NCBI RefSeq assembly: GCF_022965755.1
Contig: NZ_CP095187.1
Coordinates: 1,550,001-1,614,000 of the forward strand
Direction: 5' to 3'
Length of the DNA stretch: 64,000 nt
Origin: Pseudoxanthomonas sp. F37
Lineage (GTDB): Bacteria > Pseudomonadota > Gammaproteobacteria > Xanthomonadales > Xanthomonadaceae
Below the pieces are notes generated by a model. The model was given only the letters and a program-made list of their open reading frames with translations, was not told the DNA's origin and searched no databases. Shown one piece after another: positions 2,219 to 18,075 of the stretch (position 1 is the first letter of the stretch; each line of letters opens with the position of its first letter). Both the position numbers and the translations under genes were made by a program.

Positions 2219-3622
2219 TCAGACCAGGCCGGTGGCGTAGAACGTGCCGATCACCACGAACACGGCCGCGGTCTTGATCAGGGTGATGGCGAAGATGTCC
2301 TTGTACGACTGCCGGTGGCTCAGGCCGGTGACGGCCAGCAAGGTGATCACCGCACCATTGTGGGGCAGGGTGTCCATGCCGCCGGAGGCCATCGAGGCCA
2401 CGCGGTGCAGCACCTCCATCGGGATGCCGGCCGCGTTCGCGTTGGCGATGAAGCTGTCGGCCATCGCCGCCAGCGCAATGCTCATGCCGCCCGAGGCCGA
2501 ACCGGTGATGCCGGCCAGCGCGGTGACCGAGATCGCCTCGTTGACCAGTGGGTTAGGGATGGCCTGTAACGCATTGGCCACCACCAGGAAGCCCGGCAGG
2601 GCGGCGATGACGGCACCGAACCCGTATTCCGATGCCGTGTTCATCGAGGCCAGCAATGCGCCGCCGATGGCGCTCTTCGTGCCTTCTGCGAAACTGGCGA
2701 ACACCGGCTTCCACGCGAACGCGATCACCGAGACGATGCCCACCAGCAGCGCGCCCTGCACGGCCCAGATGGCGGCGACCTTCGAGATTTCCTGCACCAC
2801 GGGCGCGGGGTTGCCGATGACGGCAGGCACGAAGGATTGGCTGTCGCCGTAGAAGCCGGGAATCCAGCGGGTGAACAGGAAGTTGGCCACGCCCACCAGC
2901 AGCAGCGGCAGGATCGCGATCAGCGGATGCGCCAGGCGGTCGCCGTTGAAGGGCTCCGGCTCGTTGCGCAGTTCCGCGCCGCCGGCATAGCCCTCGCCAT
3001 TGCGCGCGGCCACCCGGCGGCGCCATTCCAGGTAGCTCATGCCGACGATCAGGATGAACACGCCGCCGATCGTGCCCAGCACCGGCGCGGCCCAGCCGGT
3101 GGTGCCGAAGAACGACGTCGGGATGATGTTCTGGATCTGCGGCGTGCCCGGCAGTGCATCCATGGTGAAGGTGAAGGCGCCCAGTGCGATGGTGCCCGGC
3201 ACCAGCCGCTTGGGGATATCGCTCTGGCGGAACAGTTCCGCCGCGAACGGGTACACCGCGAACACCACCACGAACAGCGACACGCCGCCGTAGGTCAGCA
3301 GCGCGCACACCAGCACGATGGACAGCATGGCGCGCTGCGCGCCGACCACCTTGATGGTGGCTTTCACTATCGCCTTGGAGAAGCCCGAGATCTCGATCAG
3401 CTTGCCGAACACCGCGCCCAGCAGGAACACCGGGAAGTACAGCTTCAGGAAGCCGACCATCTTGTCCATGAACAGGCCGGTGAACATGGGCGCCACCAGC
3501 GAGGGATCGGTCAGCAGCACCGCGCCCAGCGCCGCGATGGGCGCGAACAGGATGACGCTGTAGCCGCGGTAGGCCACGAACATCAGGAAGCACAGCGCGG
3601 CCAGCACGATCAGGAACGACAT
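2219..3622 (-). CDS. GntP family permease
   Basis: This 467-residue polytopic inner-membrane protein belongs to the GntP (gluconate:H+ symporter) family. It starts MSFLIVLAALCFLMFVAYRG and contains about a dozen hydrophobic segments. The start at 3622 has AGGAGT 8 bp upstream. GntP members import gluconate and other small hydroxy acids. Here it is divergent from a TonB receptor and shares a promoter motif with 3-hydroxybutyrate genes 9 kb away, so 3-hydroxybutyrate is a plausible substrate. That assignment is inference; the sequence alone does not separate the substrates within GntP. Confidence 0.85.
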   Translation of the reverse strand: MSFLIVLAALCFLMFVAYRGYSVILFAPIAALGAVLLTDPSLVAPMFTGLFMDKMVGFLKLYFPVFLLGAVFGKLIEISGFSKAIVKATIKVVGAQRAMLSIVLVCALLTYGGVSLFVVVFAVYPFAAELFRQSDIPKRLVPGTIALGAFTFTMDALPGTPQIQNIIPTSFFGTTGWAAPVLGTIGGVFILIVGMSYLEWRRRVAARNGEGYAGGAELRNEPEPFNGDRLAHPLIAILPLLLVGVANFLFTRWIPGFYGDSQSFVPAVIGNPAPVVQEISKVAAIWAVQGALLVGIVSVIAFAWKPVFASFAEGTKSAIGGALLASMNTASEYGFGAVIAALPGFLVVANALQAIPNPLVNEAISVTALAGITGSASGGMSIALAAMADSFIANANAAGIPMEVLHRVASMASGGMDTLPHNGAVITLLAVTGLSHRQSYKDIFAITLIKTAAVFVVIGTFYATGLV

Positions 3623-3692
3623 CCACGACTCCTCGGCCAGCGCCGGTTGCAGGTGCGGCGAGTATCGGCAGGGCCGTGGCGGCCGTCCCACT

Positions 3693-3708
3693 GTACGAAG
3701 GTACGATG
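3693..3708. promoter_or_regulatory. Shared 16-bp operator-like motif, copy 1 (TonB receptor / GntP divergent promoter)
   Basis: The sequence GTACGAAGGTACGATG sits in the 173-bp intergenic region between the divergent GntP and TonB genes. It contains a direct repeat of GTACGA with 8-bp periodicity. A near-identical copy (14 of 16 positions) occurs at 12926-12941 between the divergent hydroxybutyrate dehydrogenase and oligomer hydrolase genes. In both copies a TAGTKT -10-like element follows at 20-21 bp (TAGTGT at 3730 here). The placement fits an activator site overlapping the -35 region of a rightward promoter. The response regulator at 11307-11972 is a candidate binder, by inference. Confidence 0.55.
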
Positions 3709-3795
3709 CCGCCCGCGCGGCCCGCCCTCTAGTGTTCGCTCCAATCGGCGGCATCCGCCCGCCGCCAACGTCATACCCGGGAGGAGGGGAGACCC

Positions 3796-6021
3796 ATGAA
3801 GCGCAAGCATCTGAGCCTGGCCATCGGCTGCGTCCTGTTGTCGTCCGTGCCGGTGGCATGGGCGCAGGAGGCCGCGCCGGCCGGCGACACGCCAGCCGCC
3901 AACGCCACCACGCTGGATTCGGTCAAGGTCACCGCACGCAAGCGCGAAGAGACCCTGCAGGACGTGCCGGTGGCCGTCACCGCGTTCACGCCGGAAACCC
4001 TGGACAAGCTGAACATCAAGGACCTGGGCGACCTGGACGCGCAGGTGCCCAACCTGACCGTGTACGCGGCGCGTGGCTCCACCAGCACCGTCACCGCCTA
4101 CATCCGCGGCGTGGGCCAGGCCGATCCGCTGTGGGGCGTGGACCCGGGCGTGGGCATCTATCTGGACGACGTCTACATCGCCCGTCCCCAGGGCGCGTTG
4201 CTGGACGTGTTCGACGTGGAGCGCATCGAGGTGCTGCGCGGTCCGCAGGGCACCCTGTACGGCAAGAACACCATCGGCGGCGCCATCAAGTACATCTCGC
4301 GCGGCCTGCCGCAGGAGACCACGGGCTTCGCCTCGGTCACCGTGGGCAACTACAACCAGCTGGACGTGAAGGCGGCGCTGGGCGGCGAGATCGGCGGCAA
4401 GGACAGCGGCCTGCGCGGCCGCGTGTCGGTGGCCAGCATGAACCGCGACGGCTTCGGCGAGAACAAGCTCAACGGCCAGCAGGTCAGCGACAAGGAGATC
4501 AATGCGGTCCGCCTGCAGCTGGGGGCGTACTCGCAGGACGATTTCGACGTGCAGTTCGCGTTCGACTATCTTGACGACCAGTCCGGCGTGCGCGGCGGCA
4601 AGCTGTTGTCGGCCAACACCAGTGCGACGGCGAACTTCCTGTTCCCGGGGTTGTCGGCCTATACCCCGATGGACAGCCGCTACGACATCTACAGCGCGAT
4701 GCCCAATGTCAACGACACCGAGATGAAGGGGCTGTCGGCGACCGTGAACTGGCGTCCCAACGACGACTGGGCGTTCAAGTACATCGTCGCCAAGCGCGAG
4801 TCGGATACCGAGACCAACATCGATTTCGACATGACGCCGTTCCCGGTCGCGGACGTGAAGGCGTTCTACAGCGACAGCCAGGTGACCAACGAAGTGCAGG
4901 CCAACTACGATGCCGGCGGTCGTGCGCGCGGCGTGGTCGGTATCTACCATTTCGATGGCGATGCTGGTGGCCAGGTGCTGAACAACTTCTTCGGCCTGAG
5001 CTTCGGCGACACCCAGGGCGTGGTGAATACCAGCAGCCTGTCCGTCTATACCGACTGGACGTTCGACCTGACCGATCGCCTGAAGCTGGACGTCGGCGCC
5101 CGCTACACCGACGAGGACAAGCATGCGGTGGCCTACAACATCGGCTATACCGATGCCACCTTCACGGTTCCCAACGGCGTGGTGGCCGCGAACTTCGACA
5201 AGACCATCAACTTCAAGAACGTCTCGCCGAAGGTCTCGCTGGACTACCAGATCACGCCCGACATCATGGTCTACGGCCTGGCCTCGCGCGGCTTCAAGTC
5301 CGGCGGCTACAACATCCGCGCCAATACCACGGCGGTGCCGCGCTCGGGCGAGCCGTTCGACGACGAGCAGGTCGACAGCTTCGAGGTCGGCAGCAAGATG
5401 TCCTTCCTCGACCAGCGCCTGTTCCTGAACCTGTCGGCATTCCACAACAAGTACGAGGACATCCAGCTGTCGGTGTTCACCCAGTACATCGACGGCAACG
5501 GAAACCCGCAGTTCTTCGGCGACTTCACCAACGCCGGCAAGGGCACGGTGAACGGCGTGGAGGTGGAGTACCAGTTCCTGCCCACCCAGCACTGGCTGAT
5601 CAGCGGCAACCTGGCCTGGCTGGATGCCAAGTACGACGAGTTCATCACCGGCGGCGTCAATGTCGCCGACAGCCAGTACTTCACCAACGCCCCGGAATTC
5701 TCCGGCGCACTCAACGTGGAGTACCGCACCGATCTCGCGAACGGGGGCAACCTCTCCGCGCGGGTGACCTACTCCTACCAGTCCGAGGTCTATCCCACCA
5801 CCGACCTCAGCGAGGCGATCAAGCAGCCCGGCTACGGCCTGCTCGGTGCAGGCGTGGTCTGGCGCGCGAACGACGCATGGTCGTTCTCGCTGCAGGGGAC
5901 CAATCTGACCGACGAGGAATACCGCACCACCGGTTACAACCTGCAGGCGGCGCTGGGCGTCCTGTCCGGCTTCTACGGTCCGCCGCGCCAGTACAGCCTG
6001 ACCGCGCGCTACGACTTCTGA
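3796..6021 (+). CDS. TonB-dependent outer-membrane receptor
   Basis: The protein has 741 residues. A classic signal peptide (MKRKHLSLAIGCVLLSS) ends near AWA at residues 21-23. It is followed by a TonB-box-like stretch (LDSVKVTARKREE), a plug domain with QDVPVAVTAF and the VLRGPQGTLYGKN motif, and a long beta-barrel ending in aromatic residues (ARYDF), as required for outer-membrane assembly. The start has GGGAGGAGGGGAG upstream. It is divergent from the GntP permease and carries the 16-bp motif shared with the PHB-oligomer genes. Hydroxybutyrate oligomers or a related organic acid are therefore possible cargo (inference). No siderophore or sugar genes lie beside it. Confidence 0.92.
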   Translation: MKRKHLSLAIGCVLLSSVPVAWAQEAAPAGDTPAANATTLDSVKVTARKREETLQDVPVAVTAFTPETLDKLNIKDLGDLDAQVPNLTVYAARGSTSTVTAYIRGVGQADPLWGVDPGVGIYLDDVYIARPQGALLDVFDVERIEVLRGPQGTLYGKNTIGGAIKYISRGLPQETTGFASVTVGNYNQLDVKAALGGEIGGKDSGLRGRVSVASMNRDGFGENKLNGQQVSDKEINAVRLQLGAYSQDDFDVQFAFDYLDDQSGVRGGKLLSANTSATANFLFPGLSAYTPMDSRYDIYSAMPNVNDTEMKGLSATVNWRPNDDWAFKYIVAKRESDTETNIDFDMTPFPVADVKAFYSDSQVTNEVQANYDAGGRARGVVGIYHFDGDAGGQVLNNFFGLSFGDTQGVVNTSSLSVYTDWTFDLTDRLKLDVGARYTDEDKHAVAYNIGYTDATFTVPNGVVAANFDKTINFKNVSPKVSLDYQITPDIMVYGLASRGFKSGGYNIRANTTAVPRSGEPFDDEQVDSFEVGSKMSFLDQRLFLNLSAFHNKYEDIQLSVFTQYIDGNGNPQFFGDFTNAGKGTVNGVEVEYQFLPTQHWLISGNLAWLDAKYDEFITGGVNVADSQYFTNAPEFSGALNVEYRTDLANGGNLSARVTYSYQSEVYPTTDLSEAIKQPGYGLLGAGVVWRANDAWSFSLQGTNLTDEEYRTTGYNLQAALGVLSGFYGPPRQYSLTARYDF

Positions 6022-6104
6022 CGCGCAACCCGAGGCGACGCGGCGCTGCGCATGCAGTGCCGCGTCGTCGTTCGTGCACGGGCGGGTGGAAGGCCGGCGC
6101 GCCC

Positions 6105-6449
6105 TCAGGGCTTGCGGGCGGGACGTTCGGGCTTGCGCGGCGAGGCCAGGTACTCCTCCGCCAGCAGGCCGGCCACGCCGGTGGTCGGGGCGGGGGTGCC
6201 CTTGTCGGTCCTGGCGACGGCGCACTCCTGCTTGTCCTGGGCCAGGTTGGGGCAGCTGACGCATTGCCTGCCGTCGGTGTTGTTGACGCAGATCTCGTAG
6301 TTGTCGCCCTTGTTGGCGATGCTGCAGTCCGGGCCACGCGATATGCAGATGCCGAGCGCGGTGCTGGTGCGCGTTGCCCAGGCGGGCGCGGATGCGGCAA
6401 TCAGTACGAGGGACAGCGCGACAGCGCGCAGGAACATGTGGTTGTGCAT
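6105..6449 (-). CDS. Small cysteine-containing secreted protein, unknown function
   Basis: The protein has 114 residues. A signal peptide (MHNHMFLRAVALSLVLIAAS, cleavage near AWA) is followed by a short region with five cysteines (GICIS, PDCS, EICV, QCVSC) and a basic, Pro-rich tail ending RPARKP. The start at 6449 is fixed by AAGGAGATCGTC directly upstream. Another cysteine (QECAV) makes six in total, so disulfide formation in the periplasm is likely. It converges on the TonB receptor and has no recognisable domain or operon partner. Confidence 0.7.
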   Translation of the reverse strand: MHNHMFLRAVALSLVLIAASAPAWATRTSTALGICISRGPDCSIANKGDNYEICVNNTDGRQCVSCPNLAQDKQECAVARTDKGTPAPTTGVAGLLAEEYLASPRKPERPARKP

Positions 6450-6666
6450 GACGATCTCCTTGTTCGACTCCGTGTGGGCACCCCCTTGGGCCCGGCGATG
6501 ACGGAACCGCAGGGCGTCCACCCCGTCGGGGGGCGTCACGCATCGGTTTCGTCATGAGGAAGAACGAGGCCCTGCGGAGACGTCGGCCACGGCAATGGGC
6601 GGGGGACGGCGCCGATCGTCGGCGCGGTAAGATCGTGGCTGGGCCGACAGGACGATTCGAGGAAGC

Positions 6667-9600
6667 ATGCTGAGCATCGGTATCGTGGTGCTGGCGGGGC
6701 TGCTCTGGCTGGGCGTGCTGTTCGGCTCGGCGCTGTATGCCGAGCGCCACCCGCGCGTGCTGGCGGTGCAGTGGCCGTACATCTACGCGCTGTCGCTCGC
6801 CGTCTACTGCACGTCGTGGACGTTCTTCGGCACGGTGACCCAGGCCGCGCGCTACGGGTGGCCGCTGCCTCCCACCTTCGTCGGCACCATCCTGCTGTAC
6901 GTGTTCGGCGCGTTCCTGCTGGTGCGGTTGGTACGGATGGCGCGCGAGTCCAATGCCACCTCGCTGGCCGACCTGATCGCCACGCGGCTGGGCAAGGACG
7001 GGTGGCTGGCGGCCACCGTCACCCTGGTCGCCGCGCTGGGACTGATCCCCTACATCGCGCTGCAGTTGAAGGCGGTGGCGATGAGCTTCGCGCTGCTGAC
7101 GCGCTCGCCGGGCAACGACGCGCTGCCCGCCTGGCAGGACAGCGCGCTGTACGTGGCGCTGGCGATGGCGGTGTTCGCGATGCTGTTCGGCACGCGCCGC
7201 GCGAGTGCGGCCGAACACAACCGCGGCCTGGTCCTGGCGATGGCGTTCGAGTCGCTGTTCAAGCTGGCGGCGATGCTGGCGCTGGGCGTGTTCGTCTGGT
7301 GGGGCCTGCCCGAACTGCCCGAGGTGCCCGCCGTGCAGGCACCGCCGTCCACCACCTACGGCTTTCTGCCGCTGGTGGCATTGGGCGTGCTGGCGATGTT
7401 CACCCTGCCGCACCAGGTGCACGTGGGCGTGGTGGAATGCCGCGACGAGCGCCATGTGCGCACGGCGCGCTGGCTGTTCCCGCTGTACATGGTGCTGATG
7501 GCCGCGCCCCTGCTGCCGCTGGCGCGCGCGGGCGGCGCGATGTTCGGCGATGCGGTGCCGTCCGACCTCTACGTGCTGGCGCTGCCGCTGTCGCAGGGGC
7601 AGCAGGGCCTGGCACTGCTCGCGTTCCTCGGCGGCCTCAGCGCCGCGACCGGCATGGTGGTGGTCAGCACGCTGACGCTCAGCCTGATGATCGGCAACCA
7701 CTGGCTGGCGCCGGGCCTGTTGCGCGGCGGCTGGCTGCGCGGCACCGGTGGCGACCTGCGCGGCGCGGTGCTGGCGCAGCGGCGCATCGGCATCGTCGCG
7801 GTGATGTTGCTGGCGTGGGCGTACAGCCGGCTGATCGCGGGCAACGATGCGCTGGCCGATGTGGGAGCGGTGTCGTTCTCGGCGCTGGCGACGCTGGCAC
7901 CGGCACTGGGCTTCGCCATCTGGCGGCCGCAGACGCCGCCGCGCGCGGTGATCGCCGGCATCGTGGCGGCATTCGCCGTGTGGGTGTGGCTGCTGCTGCT
8001 GCCGGTGACGATGGACGCGCGCGGCGTGGCGCCGGCCTGGCTGCAGGCTGGCCCGTTCGGCATTGCCGGGCTCTCGCCCGATGGTTTCTTCGGATTGACC
8101 GGATGGAGCCGGCTGGGCCGCGCGGTGGGCGTCAGCCTGTTCCTGGGCACGGCGGTGACGTTGCTGGTGATGGGCTGGCGCGGCACGGCCCCGCGCAGGC
8201 TCGACAGCCGCGGTTTCGATGCCAAGACCCTGCGCGATGCCGGCCGCCGCTTCCTGCCGCGCGAACGCGTGGAGGAACTGCTGGCCGATGCGCCGCGCAG
8301 CGGCCCGGTGCCCGGCGCGATCGAGGCGCGCCTGGAGCGCGAACTGTCGGCCGTGCTGGGCTCGGCTTCGGCACGCCTGCTGCTGGATGCCGCGCGACGC
8401 GAGAGCGGTGACCTGGACACGGTGGCCGCCATCGTCGGCGAAGTCTCCCAGGACCTGCGCTTCAACCAGCAGGTGCTGGAAGCCGCGCTGCAGAACATGA
8501 GCCAGGGCATCAGCGTGATCGACCGCGAGCAGCGGCTGGTGGCATGGAACCGCCGCTATGCGCAGATGTTCGGTTTCCCGTCCGAACTGCTGCAGGTCGG
8601 GCGTCCCATCGCCGACCTCACGCGATGGGCCCTGCAACGCATGCCGCAGCGCGGGCAGGACGAACGGGCGCTGGACCGGCGGCTGGCCTTCATGCGCGCC
8701 GGCACGCCGCACCTGACCGAGCGCGTGTTTCCCGACGGCAGCATCGTGGAGATCCGCGGCAATCCCATGCCGGGCGGCGGCTTCGTGGCCACGTACACCG
8801 ACGTGACCGCCTCGCGCCAGGCCGAGCGCGAACTCAAGCAGGCCAACGAGACCCTGGAGCAGCGCGTGGCCGAGCGCACCGCACTGCTGGAAACGGCCAA
8901 GCGCGAGGCCGAGCATGCGAACGATGCCAAGAGCCGCTTCCTGACCGCGATCGGCCACGACCTGCTGCAGCCCTTGCACGCTGCGCAGCTGTTCACCGAC
9001 GCGCTGTCGCAGCAGCTGCCGGAACAGCGCCAGCGCGACACCGCTCTGCAGGTGCGCGGCGCGCTGGATTCCACCACCGACCTGCTGACCGGCCTGCTGG
9101 ACATGTCGCGGCTGGAGGCCGGCGGGCTGGTCCCCGAGCCGCGCGACCTGCCGCTGATGGACGTGCTGGAGCCGCTGGCGTCGGAATTCCGCGTACTGGC
9201 ACGCGAGCGCGGCCTGTCGTTCGCGATGGTGCCCACCCGTGCCTGGGTGCACACCGATCCGCAGCTGCTGCGCCGCATCCTGCAGAACTTCCTGGCCAAT
9301 GCCGTGCGCTACACCGCACGCGGCGGCGTGCGGCTGGGCGTACGTCGTCGTGGCGCTCGCCTGCGCGTGGAGGTGTGGGATACCGGGCCGGGCATCGCCG
9401 AGGCCGAGCAGCGGCGGATCTTCGAGGAATTCCGCCGCGGCGACGACGTGCCGGGGCAGGGCCTGGGACTGGGCCTGTCGATCGCCGACCGCATCGCCAT
9501 GCTGCTGGACGCGCCCCTGTCGCTGCGCAGCCGGGTCGGGCACGGCGCCGTCTTCGCGGTCGACCTGGTGCGGGTGGCGCCTCCCGTGGCGACGCCTTCA

Positions 9601-9993
9601 CTGGCCGGCAAGCCCGGCCTGGCCGGCCGCCATGTGCTGGCGGTGGACAACGATCCCGACGCGCTCGAGGCATTGCGCCAGGTGCTCATGGGGTGGGGAT
9701 GCAGCGTGGCGACCGCCAGCGATGGCGCAGCTGCCGACGCTGCGTTGCGCGCACGGGCCGCGGACCTGTGGCTGTTCGACTATCACCTGGATGCCGGCGA
9801 CACCGGCGTCGCGCTGGCCGAACGCCTGCGTGCCGCGCATGGGCAACGTCCGTGCCTGATCCTGAGCGCCGACCAGACCGAGGCGGTACGCCGCGCGGTA
9901 CGCGACGCCGACCTGCCGCTGCTGGCCAAGCCGGTACGGCCGCTGGCGCTGAAGTCGGTGCTGGACCGCTTGCTGGTGGCGCGGGCGATGTGA
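6667..9993 (+). CDS. Transporter-like hybrid sensor histidine kinase (SSS-STAC-PAS-HK-REC)
   Basis: The protein has 1108 residues. Residues 1 to about 500 form a multi-spanning sodium:solute-symporter-like domain. A STAC-like linker follows (about 510-590), then a PAS domain (about 600-720, LEAALQNMSQGISVIDREQR). The kinase core has phospho-acceptor His764 (AIGHDLLQPL), an N box (LQNFLANAVRYT), G1 (DTGPGIA) and G2 (GQGLGLGLSIADR). A C-terminal receiver has acceptor Asp1038 and Lys in LLAKPVRP. This architecture is that of the CrbS/CbrA-like group, whose members sense carbon sources and pair with NarL/LuxR regulators; such a regulator is encoded at 11307-11972. It probably controls organic-acid or 3-hydroxybutyrate use (inference). 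Confidence 0.9.
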   Translation: MLSIGIVVLAGLLWLGVLFGSALYAERHPRVLAVQWPYIYALSLAVYCTSWTFFGTVTQAARYGWPLPPTFVGTILLYVFGAFLLVRLVRMARESNATSLADLIATRLGKDGWLAATVTLVAALGLIPYIALQLKAVAMSFALLTRSPGNDALPAWQDSALYVALAMAVFAMLFGTRRASAAEHNRGLVLAMAFESLFKLAAMLALGVFVWWGLPELPEVPAVQAPPSTTYGFLPLVALGVLAMFTLPHQVHVGVVECRDERHVRTARWLFPLYMVLMAAPLLPLARAGGAMFGDAVPSDLYVLALPLSQGQQGLALLAFLGGLSAATGMVVVSTLTLSLMIGNHWLAPGLLRGGWLRGTGGDLRGAVLAQRRIGIVAVMLLAWAYSRLIAGNDALADVGAVSFSALATLAPALGFAIWRPQTPPRAVIAGIVAAFAVWVWLLLLPVTMDARGVAPAWLQAGPFGIAGLSPDGFFGLTGWSRLGRAVGVSLFLGTAVTLLVMGWRGTAPRRLDSRGFDAKTLRDAGRRFLPRERVEELLADAPRSGPVPGAIEARLERELSAVLGSASARLLLDAARRESGDLDTVAAIVGEVSQDLRFNQQVLEAALQNMSQGISVIDREQRLVAWNRRYAQMFGFPSELLQVGRPIADLTRWALQRMPQRGQDERALDRRLAFMRAGTPHLTERVFPDGSIVEIRGNPMPGGGFVATYTDVTASRQAERELKQANETLEQRVAERTALLETAKREAEHANDAKSRFLTAIGHDLLQPLHAAQLFTDALSQQLPEQRQRDTALQVRGALDSTTDLLTGLLDMSRLEAGGLVPEPRDLPLMDVLEPLASEFRVLARERGLSFAMVPTRAWVHTDPQLLRRILQNFLANAVRYTARGGVRLGVRRRGARLRVEVWDTGPGIAEAEQRRIFEEFRRGDDVPGQGLGLGLSIADRIAMLLDAPLSLRSRVGHGAVFAVDLVRVAPPVATPSLAGKPGLAGRHVLAVDNDPDALEALRQVLMGWGCSVATASDGAAADAALRARAADLWLFDYHLDAGDTGVALAERLRAAHGQRPCLILSADQTEAVRRAVRDADLPLLAKPVRPLALKSVLDRLLVARAM

Positions 9994-10001
9994 TGACGCG
10001 T

Positions 10002-10365
10002 CGTCGTCCCAGCGAATGCTGGGTCCCATCTGCTCCTACTGACGGCATCCGGGCCCTCATGGGAAATGGATTCCAGCGTGCGCTGGAATGACGGGACGGA
10101 GCGGATCACACGCCAGGGCTCCCTCCGTCGTCCCAGCGAACGCTGGGACCCATCTGCTCCTACTGACGGCATCCGGGCCCTCATGGGAAATGGATTCCAG
10201 CTTGCGCTGGAATGACGGGCCGGAGCAGATCACACACCCGGACTCCTTCTCCGTCGTCCCAGCGAACGCTGGGACCCATCTTGCGCTTGCGGTTCCGAGC
10301 ACAGGGCGGGGAGCCCGCGGAGATCAACATCAAATGGATTCCAGGTTCGCCGGGACGACGGTCGA
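10002..10365. repeat. Tandem 124/126-bp intergenic repeat with palindromic arms
   Basis: This fills most of the 416-bp gap between the sensor kinase and the Nudix gene. Nearly identical units begin at 10002, 10126 and 10252; the third diverges after about 30 bp. Each unit has a left arm (CGTCGTCCCAGCGAACGCTG) and a right arm (GGATTCCAGC..GCTGGAATGACG), each able to form a short hairpin. The same arms recur in opposite orientation at 57671-57797. No coding potential or transposase is present. It looks like a dispersed, non-autonomous intergenic repeat expanded in tandem. Confidence 0.85.
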
Positions 10366-10409
10366 GGGTTCACAGGTAGAATCACTCCTCCGCTGCTCAC
10401 CGATCCCCC

Positions 10410-10898
10410 ATGCCCTACACCCCCATCGTCGCCACCCTCGGCTATGTGCTGTCGCCCGATCGTTCGCAGGTGCTGCTGATCCATCGCAATGCGCGCCCGG
10501 ACGACCTGCACCTGGGCAAGTACAACGGCCTGGGCGGCAAGATCGAGCGCGACGAGGACGTGGTGGCCGGCATGCGCCGCGAGATCCACGAGGAGGCCGG
10601 CATCGACTGCGAGGCGATGACGCTGCGCGGCACCATCAGCTGGCCGGGCTTCGGCAAGCACGGCGAGGACTGGCTGGGCTTCGTCTTCCTCATCACCACG
10701 TACAGCGGCACACCGTTCGAGCGCAATCCGGAAGGCACGCTGGAATGGGTGCCGGTGGAGAAGATCATGGAGTTGCCCCTGTGGGACGGGGATCGCCACT
10801 TTCTGCCGCTGGTGTTCGACGAGGACCCGCGCGGCTTCCACGGGGTCATGCCGTACCGCGACGGCCGCATGGTGTCGTGGGGCTACTCGCGCATCTGA
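10410..10898 (+). CDS. Nudix hydrolase (8-oxo-dGTP diphosphatase-like)
   Basis: The protein has 162 residues. The Nudix box (GGKIERDEDVVAGMRREI followed by HEEAGI) lies at about residues 46-69 and contains the REXXEEXG core for Mg2+ binding. The fold supports hydrolysis of nucleoside diphosphate-linked compounds. The N-terminal VATLGYVLSPD and the C-terminal FHGVMPYRDGRMVSWGYSRI fit the MutT/8-oxo-dGTP diphosphatase group that includes human MTH1-like proteins, so pool sanitation is likely. It stands alone between two repeat regions. Confidence 0.85.
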   Translation: MPYTPIVATLGYVLSPDRSQVLLIHRNARPDDLHLGKYNGLGGKIERDEDVVAGMRREIHEEAGIDCEAMTLRGTISWPGFGKHGEDWLGFVFLITTYSGTPFERNPEGTLEWVPVEKIMELPLWDGDRHFLPLVFDEDPRGFHGVMPYRDGRMVSWGYSRI

Positions 10899-10916
10899 AG
10901 CGACCGGCGGGGCGTG

Positions 10917-10975
10917 GGCGCGACGCGAGTCGCGATCTCGGATGGCTCATCGCGACTGGCGTCGCTCCCGCAGGA
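10917..10975. repeat. Short inverted repeat (GCGACGCGAGTCGCGAT family)
   Basis: Left arm GCGACGCGAGTCGCGAT (about 10919-10935) faces right arm ATCGCGACTGGCGTCGCTCC (10949-10968). A related inverted pair occurs at 18094-18248 after phaC. The placement directly behind a stop codon and the imperfect palindrome resemble REP elements. It may help termination or mRNA stability; no T-run follows. Confidence 0.65.
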
Positions 10976-11044
10976 GATGGAAGCGGGGAGTGTTCCACGG
11001 TACGACTTTTCCACACCTGCTGTGGAATGACATTGGGGAAACCG

Positions 11045-11234
11045 TGTGGATAACCGCGTCCGCGCCTTGCGGCGCAAGCCTGTCAAGATGGATGGCGAAT
11101 TTTTGACCAGGCCGTGACGGTCCCGTGTCCGGGTTGTCCACACCCGGTGTGGATGGTTCGTCGACCAACATGTGGATAAGCCTCGGCGCGCTTTGCGGCA
11201 CAAGGCTGTCAAGGTGTGTGGCGAATTTTTGACC
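11045..11234. repeat. Direct 64-bp repeat pair, each with a perfect DnaA-box sequence
   Basis: Two 64-bp copies (11045-11108 and 11171-11234, period 126 bp) start with TGTGGATAA, the complement of the DnaA box TTATCCACA, and end with GCGAATTTTTGACC. Between and before them are inverted TCCACA/TGTGGA pairs (TTCCACACCTGCTGTGGAA near 11010; GTCCACACCCGGTGTGGAT near 11138). The 408-bp gap 10899-11306 holds no gene. The density of DnaA-type motifs is notable, but no replication gene is nearby, so this is not assigned as an origin. Confidence 0.7.
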
Positions 11235-11306
11235 GCGCCCCCTTGGCCTGCGGTCGCCGGCGACTCCGCACGCGTCGCAACGCGCGAACAATGCAGCCGT
11301 GGAACC

Positions 11307-11972
11307 TCAGCCCTCGATATGCCGCGCCGGGTCGGCCAGCTCGAGTTCCCTCAGCACCACGCCGGCCTGCGTGCGGTTGCGCACGCCCAGGCGGTCGAAG
11401 ATGGCGGACAGGTGCGCCTTGACGGTGCGCTCCTGCACGTCCAGGCGGTCGGCGATCTGCTTGTTCAGCAGGCCCTGCGCCACCAGCGTCAGCACGCGGA
11501 ACTGTTGCGGGGACAGGCTGGCCAGGCGGCCCGCCAGTTCGGTGTCGTGTTCGGACGACTGCGCGCGCGCCACCGCGCCACGCAGCGAGGCCGGCAGCCA
11601 CTGCTCGCAGGCCAGCACGCTGCGGATGGCGTCGCGCAGTTCGTCCAGGCCGGAACTCTTGGGCAGATAGCCCGCGGCGCCATGGTCCAGCGCACGCCGC
11701 ACCACGCGCGGATCGTCGTTGGCCGACACCACCACCACCGCGACCGCAGGGAACTGCGCGCGGATCGCCGCCAGCCCGGCCAGGCCGTGATTGCCGGGCA
11801 TGTGCAGGTCCAGCAACACCAGGTCGATGTCGTCGTGCGCTTCCAGCGTGGCAATCACCCCGTCCAGCGATTCGGCCTCGCGCACCGTCAACTGGGCCAC
11901 GGCATCGGCGGCCGCGCCGCGCAGGGCGGCCCGGAACAGCGGATGGTCGTCGGCGATCAGGAGGCTGGGCAT
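11307..11972 (-). CDS. NarL/LuxR-family response regulator
   Basis: The protein has 221 residues. The N-terminal receiver has the acidic pair Asp8/Asp9, phospho-acceptor Asp55 (VLLDLHMPG) and Lys105 (GYLPKSS). A C-terminal LuxR helix-turn-helix includes LVAQGLLNKQIADRLDVQ and ERTVKAHLSAIFDRL. It is the natural partner of the CrbS-like hybrid kinase at 6667-9993, because such kinases signal to NarL-type regulators. It lies between that kinase and the 3-hydroxybutyrate genes and on the same strand as the dehydrogenase. It is the best candidate to bind the 16-bp motif at 3693 and 12926 (inference). Confidence 0.92.
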   Translation of the reverse strand: MPSLLIADDHPLFRAALRGAAADAVAQLTVREAESLDGVIATLEAHDDIDLVLLDLHMPGNHGLAGLAAIRAQFPAVAVVVVSANDDPRVVRRALDHGAAGYLPKSSGLDELRDAIRSVLACEQWLPASLRGAVARAQSSEHDTELAGRLASLSPQQFRVLTLVAQGLLNKQIADRLDVQERTVKAHLSAIFDRLGVRNRTQAGVVLRELELADPARHIEG

Positions 11973-11984
11973 GGGCGAGGAACG

Positions 11985-12080
11985 AGTTGGGAGGAACGAG
12001 GAACGAGCGACGGAACGCGCGACGTGCCGGGACGATGTACCGAGTTGCGCCAGCAGGCTCCCACTCGTTTCTCGTTCCTC
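11985..12080. repeat. GAGGAACGAG repeats forming an inverted pair
   Basis: GAGGAACGAGGAACGAG at 11991-12007 faces CTCGTTTCTCGTTCCTC at 12064-12080, within the 132-bp gap between the response regulator and the dehydrogenase gene. One further GGAACGAG lies just upstream. The arms could form a long-loop hairpin. No function is evident. Confidence 0.55.
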
Positions 12081-12104
12081 AACCCCCGTTTCTGGCTTCC
12101 TGCT

Positions 12105-12872
12105 TCACTGTACCGTCCACCCGCCATCCACCACGATCGTCTGCCCGGTGATGTTGCGCGCGGCAGGCGAGGTGAGGAAGGCGGTGATGCCGGCCAGTTC
12201 GTCCAGGCCGATGAAAACGCCCTTCGGCATGGGCTTCAGCATCACCTGGCTGACCACGTCGGCCTCGGAAATGCCGCGGGTACGCGCCTGGTCGGCGATC
12301 TGCTTGTCCACCAGCGGCGTCTTCACGTAGCTGGGGCAGACGGTGTTGATGGTGATGTCGGTGTCGGCGGTTTCCAGCGCCAGCACCTTGGAGAAGCCGA
12401 CCAGCCCGTGCTTGGCCGCCACGTAGGCGCTCTTGTAGGGGCTGGCCACCAGCGCGTGGATGCTGCCGATGTTGACGATGCGGCCGAACCCGCGTTCGCG
12501 CATGCCGGGCAGCACGGCGCGGGTCAGCCGCGCCACGCCCACCAGCATCACCTGCACCAGGAAATCCCACTTCTCGATGGGGAACTCCTCCAGCGGCGAC
12601 ACATGCTGCAGGCCGGCATTGTTGACCAGCACGTCGATGGGGCGCGAGATCGTGGCCAGCGCGGCATCGATGCTGTCCTGCGAGGTGACGTCCAGTGCCA
12701 CCGCCTCGGCGGAACCGCCCGCGGTGCGGATCTGCGCGGCGACGGCTTCGGCGGCCTCCAGGTTGAGGTCGCTGACGATGACGTGGCGGCCGGCCTCGGC
12801 CAGCTGGGAGGCGATGCCGGCACCGATGCCGCTGGCCGCGCCGGTGATGAGGAGGGTGTGGGTCTTCTGCAT
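12105..12872 (-). CDS. 3-hydroxybutyrate dehydrogenase
   Basis: This 255-residue classical short-chain dehydrogenase is predicted to oxidise (R)-3-hydroxybutyrate to acetoacetate with NAD+. The cofactor motif GAASGIG is at residues 11-17 and NNAG at 84-87. The catalytic Ser137, Tyr150 and Lys154 lie in NIGSIHALVASPYKSAYVAAKHG-type context. The segment VASPYKSAYVAAKHGLVG is characteristic of bacterial HBDH. It is divergent from the oligomer hydrolase gene and shares with it the promoter motif at 12926-12941. Together they would turn hydroxybutyrate oligomers into monomer and then acetoacetate. Confidence 0.9.
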   Translation of the reverse strand: MQKTHTLLITGAASGIGAGIASQLAEAGRHVIVSDLNLEAAEAVAAQIRTAGGSAEAVALDVTSQDSIDAALATISRPIDVLVNNAGLQHVSPLEEFPIEKWDFLVQVMLVGVARLTRAVLPGMRERGFGRIVNIGSIHALVASPYKSAYVAAKHGLVGFSKVLALETADTDITINTVCPSYVKTPLVDKQIADQARTRGISEADVVSQVMLKPMPKGVFIGLDELAGITAFLTSPAARNITGQTIVVDGGWTVQ

Positions 12873-12925
12873 GGGGGCTCCTGCGTGCTGCGGCTAGGGT
12901 AGCAGGCAGGCGTCCGCCGTTCGTG

Positions 12926-12941
12926 GTACCAAAGTACGATG
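12926..12941. promoter_or_regulatory. Shared 16-bp operator-like motif, copy 2 (HBDH / oligomer hydrolase divergent promoter)
   Basis: GTACCAAAGTACGATG lies in the 131-bp region between the divergent dehydrogenase (start 12872) and oligomer hydrolase (start 13004). It matches the motif at 3693-3708 at 14 of 16 positions. TAGTTT follows at 12962, the same spacing as at the first site, and is a plausible -10 element for the hydrolase gene. Conserved sequence plus conserved spacing argue for a common activator. Confidence 0.55.
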
Positions 12942-13003
12942 ACGGGACTTCCGTGGCGCGGTAGTTTCGTGGCATTGACCGGAACCATGGATGCACTCCA
13001 GGC

Positions 13004-14839
13004 ATGAACGCGACGATGCGACTTTCCTGTGGCGTATGGCTGGCGGCGATGCTCGCCGGCTGCACCAGCGCCCCCTCCAGGCCCGAGGCCGTGACCCACA
13101 TGATCCAGCCCCAGCGCGTCACCGAGCACCGCGGCGATGACGACCTGCTGACCGCGGGGCTGGGCCTGGACGGCCTGCGCGCGATGGCGGCCCCCGCGTT
13201 CGCCGATCCCGCCCATCCCACGGCCGCCGAGCTGCGCCGCCGGGCGATCTGGGGGAACTGGCGCGGCATCGCCGACCTGTCGCCGAGCGGCGGCTATGGC
13301 CAGGCCTACGGCAGCGTGGCCCGGGTGCCGGGGCGCGAATACTCGGCACTGGCGAAAGTGCCGGGGGCGGCGCAACCGCACCGCGTGCTGGTGCAGGTAC
13401 CCGACAACTTCGACACGGGCAAGCGCTGCATCGTCGTCACCGCCTCGTCGGGTTCGCGCGGCATCTATGGCGCCATCGCGGTGGCCGCGCCGTGGGGCCT
13501 GCCGAAGGGCTGCGCCGTCGCCTACACCGACAAGGGCGCGGGCACGGATTACTTCGACCTCGACGAACAGCGGGGTGCGCGCGAGGACGGCACGCCCGGG
13601 GCACTGGGCACCGACACGCTCGCGTTCGCGCCCGACGCGCCGGTCGGCGCCAGCGGCGTGGCGGTCAAGCACGCGCATTCCAAGGACAATCCGGAAGCGG
13701 ACTGGGGCCGGCACGTGAAGCAGGCCGCCGAGTTCGCGCTGGCGGCGCTGGACCAGGCATTCCCGCAGGCGGCGCCGTTCCGCTTCGACAATACGCGCGT
13801 CATCGCGGTCGGCATTTCCAATGGCGGTGGCGCGGTCCTGCGCGCCAGCGAGGAGGAGGGCGGCTGGCTGGACGCCGTCGTCGCCGGTGAGCCCAACATC
13901 TACGCCGCCGATGCGCCCGGCGCGCGTTCGCTGTACGACTACACCACCGAAGCCGCGCTGCTGATGCCCTGCGCATTGCTGGACCTGCCGGCGGAATCGC
14001 TGCCGCAGCCGCCGCTGCGCGCGCAGGTGGAACCGCTGTGGGTCGCGCGCTGCGCCACGCTCAAGGCCGCCGGTCTGGTCACCGGTGGCGACGCGAAGGC
14101 GCAGGCGGCCTCGGCCCGTGCGCAGCTGAAGGCGAACGGCTGGACCGACCAGGCGCTGGTGGCCGGCGCGCTGAGCGTGGGCTTCGACCTGTGGCGCGCG
14201 GTGGCCGTCACCTACGCCTCGGCCTATGGCCGCTACGGCGCGGGCGAGCATCCGTGCGGGTACGCGTTCTCCGCGCAGAATCCGGACTTCAGCGCACGCG
14301 CGGCGAGCGCCGCGGAACGCGCAGCGTGGTGGTCCGACGGCAGCGGCATTCCCCCGGGCGCGGGCGTGGGCATCGTCGACACGCGGCTGGCACCGCCGGA
14401 CTTCACCCTGCCGGGCCTGCAATGCCTGCGTGCGCTGCAGGCCGGCGAGAGCGACGATGCGCGCCGCGTGCAGGCCGGTATCGCGCAGACCTCGGCGCGC
14501 TTTCCGCGTACGCGCCGTCCGGTGGTGGTGATCCACGGCCTGGACGACGGGCTGGTGCCGCCGGCGTTCTCCAGTGCGCCGTACGTGGAGGCCGCGCGCG
14601 CCGCCAATCCGGACGTGCGCTACTGGCAGGTGCGGCATGCGCAGCACTTCGACGGCTTCCTTGCGCTGCCGGCCTACGGGGCGCGCTATGTGCCCCTGCT
14701 GCCCTACGTGTATGCCGCGCTGGACCAGGTCGACGCCACGCTGGATGGCAGCAGGGAGCTGCCGGCGAATGCGCTGATCAACGCCAATCCGCGCGGCACG
14801 GGCAGCGTGGAAGCCAGCCAGTTCGCGATTCCGCGGTAA
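13004..14839 (+). CDS. 3-hydroxybutyrate oligomer hydrolase, lipoprotein
   Basis: The 611-residue protein matches the D-(-)-3-hydroxybutyrate oligomer hydrolase family (3HBOH). The N-terminus is a lipoprotein signal with lipobox LAGC and Cys20, so the enzyme is predicted to be anchored in the envelope facing the periplasm or surface. The likely nucleophile is Ser272 in VGISNGGG. A later segment, VVVIHGLDDGLVPPAF, and the terminal AQHFDGFLALP supply candidate Asp and His. The reaction is hydrolysis of 3HB oligomers to monomers. The shared promoter motif links it to HBDH, the TonB receptor and the GntP permease. Confidence 0.88.
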   Translation: MNATMRLSCGVWLAAMLAGCTSAPSRPEAVTHMIQPQRVTEHRGDDDLLTAGLGLDGLRAMAAPAFADPAHPTAAELRRRAIWGNWRGIADLSPSGGYGQAYGSVARVPGREYSALAKVPGAAQPHRVLVQVPDNFDTGKRCIVVTASSGSRGIYGAIAVAAPWGLPKGCAVAYTDKGAGTDYFDLDEQRGAREDGTPGALGTDTLAFAPDAPVGASGVAVKHAHSKDNPEADWGRHVKQAAEFALAALDQAFPQAAPFRFDNTRVIAVGISNGGGAVLRASEEEGGWLDAVVAGEPNIYAADAPGARSLYDYTTEAALLMPCALLDLPAESLPQPPLRAQVEPLWVARCATLKAAGLVTGGDAKAQAASARAQLKANGWTDQALVAGALSVGFDLWRAVAVTYASAYGRYGAGEHPCGYAFSAQNPDFSARAASAAERAAWWSDGSGIPPGAGVGIVDTRLAPPDFTLPGLQCLRALQAGESDDARRVQAGIAQTSARFPRTRRPVVVIHGLDDGLVPPAFSSAPYVEAARAANPDVRYWQVRHAQHFDGFLALPAYGARYVPLLPYVYAALDQVDATLDGSRELPANALINANPRGTGSVEASQFAIPR

Positions 14840-15616: not shown

Positions 15617-17008
15617 ATGGCGACAAACGTTCCACCGTGGCCGGGCGATTTCGAATCGGTGGCCCAGCAGTACTGGAGCCTGTGGGGCGACGCCCTGCGA
15701 CAGGTGGGCGCAGCGCCGGCGATGCCGATGCCGGGCGCGGCCCCGGGCTGGCAGCAGACGGTCGACTGGTGGGCGCAGCTGGTGCCCGGCGGGCAGGCGC
15801 AGGTGGACGAGGCCGTGGGCCGCTTCCAGCGGCAGGCCAGCCAGTGGTTCGGGCAGATGCAGCAGGTCGCGGCGCAGTTCACCGGCCGCGACCACGACGC
15901 CACCGACATCGGCCGCGCCTGGCGCTCGGCGCTGGGCATGGCCGAGCCCACGCCCGCGCACAATCCCTTCGCCGACATCTTCCGCAGCATGCAGGGCGGC
16001 GCGCACGGACTGGATGGCTGGATGCAGCAACTGCGCCCGTGGCTGGAGAACCTGCAACGCGATGGCGACCGCTGGCTGCACGTGCCGACCTTCGGCCTGG
16101 CGCGCGAGCACCAGGAACGCTGGCAGCATCTGGCGCAGGCGTACCAGGGTTACCAGCAGCGCGTGGCCGAATACGACCAGCTGATGCTGCAGGTGGCGCA
16201 GGATGCATTCGCGCGTTTCGAGCGCAAGCTGGAGGAACACGCCGAGCCGGGCCGGCAACTGCAGAATGCGCGCGCGCTGTTCGACCTGTGGATCGACGCG
16301 GCCGAAGAAGCCTATGCGCAGGTCGCCCTGTCCGAGGATTTCCGCCACGTCTTCGGCGGCCTGGCCAATGCGCAGGCCCGCCTGCGGCTGGGCGTGCAGC
16401 GCGAGGTGGAACAGGTCTGCACGCTGTTCGGCATGCCCACGCGCACCGAAGTGGATTCCGCGCATCGCAAGATCGTCGAACTCGAACGCGCGCTGCGCAG
16501 GGTCACGCGCGCACAGGCGGCCCCCGTGCGGCGCGCGCCCGTGCAGCGCGCCGCTGCTGAGCCGGTGGAAGCGCCGGTGGTCGCTGAAGCACCGCCGCCG
16601 CCTGCACCACGCCCGGCAAAACCGAAGGCGGTGAAGAAGCGTCCGCCTTCGCGCAAGCCTGCACCGGCAGCCAAAGCCGCGCCCAAGAAGCGCGTGGCGG
16701 CCAAGAAGACGGCGGCGAAGAAGCCCCCGCGACGGGCCGTCGCCGCGGCGGCGCCCCTCGCCACCCGGCAGGAGCGGGCGCCGGCCGCTGCGCAGGCCGT
16801 CGCGCGCAAGCCCGCCAGGGCCAGGACGCCGACCCAGGCCGTGCCGAAGGCGCGTGTGGCCAAAGCGCCGAAGAAAACGGCAGCGCCCGCCAGCAAGCCG
16901 GCCTCGGTCGTGTCGATGAAGGACTGGGTGGCCCGCAACGCCGCGCGCGCCGCCACGGCGCAGGCGCCGAAGGCCGCCAGCAAGACGAAGCGGGGTAAAG
17001 GCAAGTGA
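15617..17008 (+). CDS. phaE: Class III PHA synthase subunit PhaE with a basic histone-like tail
   Basis: The protein has 463 residues. The first 300 or so fit PhaE (start FESVAQQYWSLWGDALRQ; the conserved GMPTRTEVD segment near residue 275). PhaE binds and activates PhaC for PHB polymerisation on granules. From about residue 300 to the end the chain is Ala/Lys/Pro/Arg-rich with KKRVAAKKTAAKKPPRR-type blocks, unlike the usual shorter PhaE. This resembles the DNA-binding tails of the granule proteins PhaF and PhaM. The start at 15617 follows GGGAAGGGAGGGC. The stop overlaps the phaC start by 4 bp, so the pair is translationally coupled. Confidence 0.85.
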   Translation: MATNVPPWPGDFESVAQQYWSLWGDALRQVGAAPAMPMPGAAPGWQQTVDWWAQLVPGGQAQVDEAVGRFQRQASQWFGQMQQVAAQFTGRDHDATDIGRAWRSALGMAEPTPAHNPFADIFRSMQGGAHGLDGWMQQLRPWLENLQRDGDRWLHVPTFGLAREHQERWQHLAQAYQGYQQRVAEYDQLMLQVAQDAFARFERKLEEHAEPGRQLQNARALFDLWIDAAEEAYAQVALSEDFRHVFGGLANAQARLRLGVQREVEQVCTLFGMPTRTEVDSAHRKIVELERALRRVTRAQAAPVRRAPVQRAAAEPVEAPVVAEAPPPPAPRPAKPKAVKKRPPSRKPAPAAKAAPKKRVAAKKTAAKKPPRRAVAAAAPLATRQERAPAAAQAVARKPARARTPTQAVPKARVAKAPKKTAAPASKPASVVSMKDWVARNAARAATAQAPKAASKTKRGKGK

Positions 17009-18075
17009 ACGGACCGCTCAACTTCACCGCCGAAACGCTGGCCCAGGAGGCCACCACGCTGGTGCAGAAACTCTCCGCCGGCCTGCATACGCTGCCGGAG
17101 GTGGACGATGTCCACTATGGCGCCACCCGGAAGCAGGAAGTCTGGCGCGATGGCAAGGTGGTGCTGTACCGCTTCATCGGCGAGAAGGCCCCCACGGCGA
17201 AGGTCCCCCTGCTGATCGTCTACGCACTGGTCAACCGGCCGTACATGGTGGACCTGCAGCACGACCGCTCGCTGGTGAAGGGGCTGCTGGCGCAGGGCGA
17301 GGATGTCTACGTCATCGACTGCGGCTATCCCGACCGCTCCGACCGCTTCCTCGAACTGGACGACTACATCAACCGCTTCCTCGACGGTGCGGTCGACCAC
17401 CTGCGCGACAGCCACGGGCGCGAGGCGGTCAACGTGCTGGGCATCTGCCAGGGCGGCGCGTTTTCCCTGTGCTATGCCGCGCTGCACCCCGCGAAGGTCA
17501 AGAACCTCATCACCATGGTCACGCCGGTGGACTTCCACACCCCGGACAACATGCTTTCGCACTGGACGCGCGAGCTGGACGTGGACCTGTTCGTCGATGC
17601 GCTGGGCAACGTGCCGGCCGACATGATGAACGCCTGCTACCTGATGCTGAAGCCGTTCCGGCTGAACCTGCAGAAGTACGTGGGGCTGATGGACATCCTG
17701 GACGACAAGCGCGCCATCGAGGATTTCCTGCGCATGGAGAAGTGGATCTTCGACTCGCCCGACCTGGCGGGCGAAGCCTTCCGCCAGTTCATCAAGCAGT
17801 TCTACCAGCGCAACGGCTTCATCAAGGGCGGCATCGAGATCGGCGGCGAACCGGTGGACCTGGGCTTCGTCGACATGCCGGTACTGAACATCTACGCCGA
17901 GCAGGACCACCTGGTGCCGCCGGATGCCTCGCGTGCGTTGAAGGACGTGGTGGGCACGGCGGACTACACCGAGCTGAGCTTCAAGGGCGGCCACATCGGC
18001 ATCTACGTTTCAAGCCGGGCCCAGCGCGAAGTGCCATCGGCCATCCACCACTGGCTGGGCCAGCGCGCGCGCTAG
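17005..18075 (+). CDS. phaC: Class III poly(3-hydroxyalkanoate) synthase subunit PhaC
   Basis: The 356-residue alpha/beta-hydrolase-fold polymerase joins (R)-3-hydroxybutyryl-CoA into PHB. The catalytic Cys148 lies in the lipase-like box GICQGG. Asp in IYAEQDHLVPP and His in FKGGHIGIYV complete the triad. The length matches class III PhaC, which needs PhaE. The start is GTG at 17005, inside the phaE stop (GTGA overlap). No phaA, phaB or phasin gene is adjacent, so precursor supply must be encoded elsewhere. Confidence 0.92.
   Translation: MNGPLNFTAETLAQEATTLVQKLSAGLHTLPEVDDVHYGATRKQEVWRDGKVVLYRFIGEKAPTAKVPLLIVYALVNRPYMVDLQHDRSLVKGLLAQGEDVYVIDCGYPDRSDRFLELDDYINRFLDGAVDHLRDSHGREAVNVLGICQGGAFSLCYAALHPAKVKNLITMVTPVDFHTPDNMLSHWTRELDVDLFVDALGNVPADMMNACYLMLKPFRLNLQKYVGLMDILDDKRAIEDFLRMEKWIFDSPDLAGEAFRQFIKQFYQRNGFIKGGIEIGGEPVDLGFVDMPVLNIYAEQDHLVPPDASRALKDVVGTADYTELSFKGGHIGIYVSSRAQREVPSAIHHWLGQRAR

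Follow-up and report, generated by a model that had tools for sequence, protein, structure and literature searches.

The window considered here is a stretch of 64,000 nucleotides from Pseudoxanthomonas sp. F37 (contig NZ_CP095187.1, positions 1,550,001 to 1,614,000), and positions are counted from its first letter. Two of its divergent intergenic regions, one between genes for a GntP-type permease and a TonB-dependent receptor, the other between genes for 3-hydroxybutyrate dehydrogenase (HBDH) and a 3-hydroxybutyrate (3HB)-oligomer hydrolase, carry the same palindromic box at a similar distance from predicted -10 elements. Genes for a hybrid histidine kinase and a response regulator lie between the two regions. 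Sequence comparisons make it very probable that both sites are binding boxes of this CrbR/ErdR-type regulator (11307-11972), which would regulate four genes of 3-hydroxybutyrate uptake and breakdown. The locus comprises the following genes and elements:

2219..3622, minus strand: GntP-type permease, assigned by similarity to annotated GntP family permeases (profile searches gave no Pfam or NCBIfam match)
3661..3666, minus strand: candidate -10 element GATACT of the GntP gene, gap 26, read from the sequence
3693..3704, no strand: palindromic box 1, GTACGAAGGTAC, in the GntP/TonB intergenic region
3730..3735, plus strand: predicted -10 element TAGTGT of the TonB receptor gene, gap 25 from the 12-mer
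3796..6021, plus strand: TonB-dependent receptor (Pfam)
6667..9993, plus strand: SLC5-STAC-PAS hybrid histidine kinase (Pfam domains, profile against structure)
11307..11972, minus strand: NarL/LuxR-type response regulator, ErdR/CrbR relative (Pfam, NCBIfam), the proposed activator
12105..12872, minus strand: HBDH (TIGR01963, above cut-off)
12896..12901, minus strand: predicted extended -10 element TGC-TACCCT of the HBDH gene, gap 24, mirroring the hydrolase -10
12926..12937, no strand: palindromic box 2, GTACCAAAGTAC, in the HBDH/hydrolase intergenic region
12962..12967, plus strand: predicted -10 element TAGTTT of the hydrolase gene, gap 24 from the 12-mer
13004..14839, plus strand: 3HB-oligomer hydrolase (PF10605; lipobox-like N-terminus)

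The two sites had been noticed in a sequence-only reading as a pair of 16-mers followed by TAGTKT, and they were found as described. GTACGAAGGTACGATG at 3693-3708 and GTACCAAAGTACGATG at 12926-12941 match at 14 of 16 positions, with TAGTGT (3730-3735) starting 21 nt past the first and TAGTTT (12962-12967) starting 20 nt past the second. The description of the motif was refined: the shared core is a palindrome of two GTAC half-sites with a 4-nt spacer, followed by GATG, and the unit is better written as GTAC-N4-GTAC-GATG, then TANNNT 24 or 25 nt past the 12-mer. At box 2, TANNNT is also present 24 nt away on the opposite strand. A pure direct repeat was considered and rejected; GTAC reads the same on both strands, which makes the unit an inverted repeat just as well, and the mirrored -10 elements point to the inverted form.

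A scan of the window allowing at most 3 mismatches gave two exact matches and one with 3 mismatches, compared with a mean of 0.35 matches in 100 shuffled windows, none of which reached 3. In the genome as a whole (3.97 Mb), GTACNAANGTACGATG with at most one mismatch was matched three times, by both sites and by a position (C1:2021218) within a 916-aa open reading frame. The bare palindrome, GTACNNNNGTAC, is not enriched (25 sites genome-wide, 66 for the reversed control). When all 25 sites were read, TANNNT was found 23-26 nt downstream in just two, both of them the sites of interest.

The strict pattern GTACSAANGTACGAYG was then sought in a family sample of 198 Lysobacteraceae genomes, where it gave 101 sites in 97 genomes and the reversed control gave one. 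Ninety-six of these sites precede a 3HB-oligomer-hydrolase match by 76-722 bp, all on the hydrolase strand, the distance being measured to the profile match and not to the start codon. The other five comprise four sites of the same genus at 9.0-9.4 kb upstream, matching the TonB/GntP position, and one at a contig edge. The distribution of the motif is one of functional bias rather than random scatter. A chance pair was rejected on the shuffles, the reading of the 25 palindromes and these family-wide positions.

The genes for GntP, the TonB receptor, the kinase, the regulator, HBDH and the hydrolase adjoin one another in Lysobacteraceae and Rhodanobacteraceae, with varying completeness. Hydrolase promoters at loci L005-L020 contain the strict box in 15 of 16 cases, L020 having one base changed. 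A regulator search in named genomes, of which the best 80 of 577 loci were used, showed GntP, TonB receptor, regulator and kinase genes grouped in Idiomarina, Aliidiomarina, Aliiglaciecola, Bowmanella and others (about 32-54% protein identity), and the TonB/GntP box is also found in other gammaproteobacterial orders, next to a regulator of about 50% identity. Among 30 TonB/GntP intergenic regions (29 loci and the window), 8 palindrome letters are present in 19, 7 in 10 and 6 in one, scores that are favoured by choosing the best place in each case. The spacing was not chosen, and TANNNT lies exactly 25 nt downstream on the TonB side in 23 of the 30. The motif is, as the sequence-only reading had required for its proposal to stand, conserved in the orthologous promoters of relatives, at both the hydrolase and the TonB/GntP sites.

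Such conservation might merely be leftover similarity of related intergenic DNA with no regulator involved, the more so as most of the compared genomes come from one family. This explanation is extremely improbable: neighbouring bases are unconserved, whereas the box, its spacing and the -10 element are kept; the box is common to two different promoters and, at the TonB/GntP site, is kept in other orders; and it is missing after loss of the regulator in two genera of which other members have retained box and regulator.

The NarL/LuxR regulator encoded between the two sites had been named as the candidate activator, and the family-wide comparison favours it, since the box follows the presence and loss of the regulator. 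The hydrolase occurs in 143 of the 198 genomes and the regulator, at a threshold of at least 57% identity that was picked after the list was seen, in 132. All 97 strict-box genomes have the regulator (in G041 as a truncated match, 60%), and the strict box was found in none of the 65 genomes that lack it at this threshold. Genomes with both hydrolase and regulator contain the strict box in 95 of 126 cases. Twenty of the 31 without it were read, and 18 have a near-box with a -10 element at gap 24 or 25 (1 of 580 shuffles scored as high); L173 has a box with the -10 at gap 26, and L171 is weak. Nine hydrolase genomes without the regulator were also read. Five of them, nearly complete (G028, G060, G162, G172 and G178), have the hydrolase and an about 50% identical paralogue but no box; they fall in two genera (g11 and g28), several other sampled members of which keep box and regulator. 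Two of the other four are cut by contig ends. The site of G120 (76% complete) looks decayed, and that of G009, which has a 53% regulator about 0.9 kb away, matches at 9 of 10 positions and lacks TANNNT.

The regulator consists of receiver and GerE/LuxR domains (Pfam). Its best NCBIfam model is ErdR (NF041830), at 219.7 bits and below the cut-off of 390. The genome encodes two more regulators of the same type, 50% and 48% identical, which are also below the cut-off (242.5 for the acs-linked paralogue and 247.5 for the third). The first of these (G000:C1:313094-313711, 50% identical) adjoins acs and might itself read the box, in which case the genes would belong to an acetate regulon and the local regulator would act elsewhere. 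The paralogue is of the same family, the palindrome geometry is similar, and CrbR controls several genes besides acs (PMC5715377). The right half-site, however, is GTA here, compared with GTC in nearly all of the sites listed for the CrbR motif, ACTU (PMC5715377). In addition, the five nearly complete genomes above, which lost the local regulator, have no box in spite of their paralogue, which may or may not be acs-linked, and the local regulator gene adjoins the genes of the system in relatives of several orders. We regard control by the acetate paralogue as quite unlikely.

The acs upstream region holds an ACTU-type sequence, TACGACCATTGTCTAAG, recognised by eye, with no TANNNT 24-25 nt after it, and when the regions around acs and the third paralogue were scanned by pattern for the box plus a -10 element, no match was obtained. 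A glutamine is found at the start of the predicted recognition helix in 10 of 10 aligned cluster-type regulators, with serine or alanine in the two paralogues; our guess is that this difference is tied to that between the GTA and GTC half-sites.

Besides the late choice of the identity threshold, several points weigh against the assignment of both boxes to the local regulator. Most of the compared genomes belong to one family, so that the counts are non-independent, and reading of the hydrolase genomes without a strict box covered 20 of the 31 with the regulator and 9 of the 16 without it. G022 and G067 have a box without TANNNT and a regulator match located elsewhere. Beyond Lysobacteraceae, the hydrolase box is weaker in the nine loci read (L022, L024-L026 and L028-L032): the palindrome is kept in L026 and L030, degraded in L022, L025, L028 and L032, and no box above threshold was found in L024, L029 and L031. 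In the window, the GntP-side -10 (GATACT) stands at gap 26, one base off the 25 of most relatives. The genome may also contain degenerate sites at other places.

The palindrome is flanked by -10 elements on both sides. Of 43 distinct boxes at hydrolase promoters, 39 have the downstream TANNNT at gap 24, the exceptions being L005 and L015 (gap 25) and L130 and L131 (no TANNNT). On the opposite side, TANNNT is found at 24 or 25 in 29 of the 43, and all of these mirrored elements are of the extended type TGNTANNNT. Their presence depends on the divergent gene, with 27 of 28 cases for an HBDH-like SDR (38-100% identity to the HBDH of the window), 2 of 13 for the regulator gene and 0 of 2 for neither (Fisher p 2.8e-7, related genomes being counted as independent). 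In L016, the odd HBDH case, and in five regulator cases, TANNNT was observed at 35 or 36, farther out by about one helical turn; in the remaining regulator-divergent cases it stands at 31 or 40 or is absent from the range covered. At the TonB/GntP site, 25 of the 30 regions have NANNNT on the other strand, toward GntP, at a distance of exactly 25 nt.

These counts bear on the question of whether control runs in one direction, with the hydrolase and TonB receptor genes activated, HBDH and GntP served by independent promoters, and the mirrored -10 elements constitutive. The GATACT toward GntP, one base off in the window, would fit such an arrangement, as would the better conservation of the right half-site, GTACGATG, than of the left. 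The frequency of the mirrored extended -10 beside HBDH-like genes compared with regulator genes argues in the opposite direction, as does the exact spacing on the GntP side, and a consensus scan of 11900-13100 found no sigma-70 promoter or terminator. One-way control is a possible but rather doubtful alternative. The proposal that the four genes form a single regulon is upheld by the comparisons, with good support on the HBDH side and weaker support on the GntP side in the window.

We see about an even chance that the boxes act as mirror-symmetric two-way switches, in which one dimer on one palindrome would serve two divergent promoters of equal geometry, and paralogous pairs would separate acetate from 3-hydroxybutyrate by one half-site base (GTC vs GTA). 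On this reading, the mirrored -10 has been kept by evolution where the divergent gene is catabolic (HBDH, GntP) and is mostly elsewhere where the regulator gene is divergent. If so, the -10 at gap 35-36 in the latter would change autoregulation.

If the -10 elements are right, the palindrome is centred at -42.5/-43.5, or about 42-44 bp before each predicted start, with no good -35 present. The site of a class II activator is centred near -41.5, next to a weak -35. The kinase contains PAS, HisKA, HATPase and receiver domains (Pfam), and a profile of the N-termini of 11 relatives matches the CbrA SLC5-STAC structure 10ED over positions 3-562 (E 1.8e-95); Pfam SSF matched one of the 11 relatives, and not the kinase of the window. 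The probable signal of the kinase is 3-hydroxybutyrate, one of its oligomers or a related organic acid. The kinase would phosphorylate the regulator, a dimer of which would bind the palindrome and, judging from the spacing and from CrbR, act as a class II activator by recruiting sigma-70 polymerase. The central position of the palindrome between mirrored -10 elements means that one box could serve both directions, presumably activating the TonB receptor and GntP permease genes at one site and the hydrolase and HBDH genes at the other. The protein families suggest an outside-in route of outer-membrane import, oligomer hydrolysis in the envelope, inner-membrane uptake and oxidation to acetoacetate. 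The regulator gene follows HBDH on the same strand at a distance of 132 bp, so that read-through could produce positive feedback. The gap holds a dispersed intergenic repeat.

That repeat is an inverted repeat around GGAACGAGGAACGAG (11975-12096), a 15-mer with 16 genomic copies that is also present between acs and its regulator. In the kinase-Nudix gap (9999-10361), 124-nt units that are 93% alike and bear palindromic arms stand in tandem, followed up by a partial third, and look REP-like. Near the acs region of its genome, L114 carries a pair of IS110-family transposase genes (13655-14809 and 16259-17413) with the same length and score.

The start codon of the hydrolase, taken as the first past the -10, is 6-8 nt from that element in 35 of 42 readable cases (promoters L005-L019 and L125-L154), although four readings at 0-3 nt may be wrong. 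Because of this distance, the hydrolase mRNA is predicted to be leaderless in those 35, a feature that goes with the activated promoter. Exceptions are the window, with the start 36 nt past the -10, and its relative L009, with 32 nt. A six-codon frame, ATGGATGCACTCCAGGCATGA (12988-13006), whose stop overlaps the hydrolase start codon, sits in the leader that is present in the window and absent from leaderless relatives.

The sequence-only reading had linked these genes to poly-3-hydroxybutyrate (PHB). The hydrolase N-terminus matches a loose lipobox motif in 33 of 42 readings, however, so that use of stored PHB is a poorer fit than the scavenging of 3-hydroxybutyrate oligomers from outside the cell. 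Control of PHB storage was rejected; PHA synthase genes are near the hydrolase locus (15617-18075), yet the genome has no further strict box.

Related boxes were observed in two other settings. In Stenotrophomonas maltophilia (L023, 8222-9957), GTACCTAGGTAC with TAGTGT at gap 24 adjoins a 66% identical regulator and stands upstream of an AMP-binding acyl-CoA-synthetase-like gene in place of the hydrolase. L161 (G029) carries a further hydrolase, accompanied by a 64% regulator of its own and by GTACCTAGGTAC with a -10 at gap 24, possibly a duplicated system.

A search of titles and abstracts in one open-access library found no link of a CrbR-type regulator to 3-hydroxybutyrate genes, which is not proof of absence. 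The present assignment would provide an uncharacterised SLC5-STAC two-component branch with target genes, a binding box and a probable class of substrate. It predicts control of the uptake of 3-hydroxybutyrate and its oligomers, the breakdown products of a natural, biodegradable plastic, in many Lysobacteraceae and some relatives in other orders. The mirrored promoters offer a simple test case for divergent activation, and the one-base difference from the acetate box offers one for the specificity of paralogous regulators.

Among known systems, RpuS/RpuR and CbrA/CbrB are more distant from the one described here than CrbS/CrbR is, and CbrB is a sigma-54 activator. RpuS/RpuR of Sinorhizobium fredii, a pyruvate system, also has an SLC5-STAC kinase and a LuxR-type regulator that activate an organic-acid transporter gene, but an imperfect direct repeat at -80 to -43 serves as its site (PMC9100948). 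CbrA shares the SLC5-STAC structure matched by the kinase N-terminus, but is tied to histidine (PMC13022988). The CrbS/CrbR (MxtR/ErdR) acetate switch is likewise formed by an SLC5-STAC hybrid kinase and a LuxR-type response regulator (PMC5715377, PMC8402216), and the system of the window would work in the same manner. Its ACTU motif, an inverted repeat of the form AC-N4-GT (4-nt spacer) that the present box shares, lies just before the promoter, and the repeat at -52 to -36 of acs, which is required in P. fluorescens, is close to the centre at -42.5/-43.5 suggested here (PMC5715377). CrbS/CrbR differs in that it targets acs/actP rather than 3-hydroxybutyrate genes, and divergent mirrored use is not described in the parts of the two papers that were consulted (PMC5715377, PMC8402216). 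Moreover, this genome has a separate paralogue beside acs, with its own ACTU-type upstream sequence. The regulator is filed as an ErdR relative and not as ErdR, because it scores below the NF041830 cut-off, and the box is kept apart from ACTU because its half-site and its predicted targets differ.

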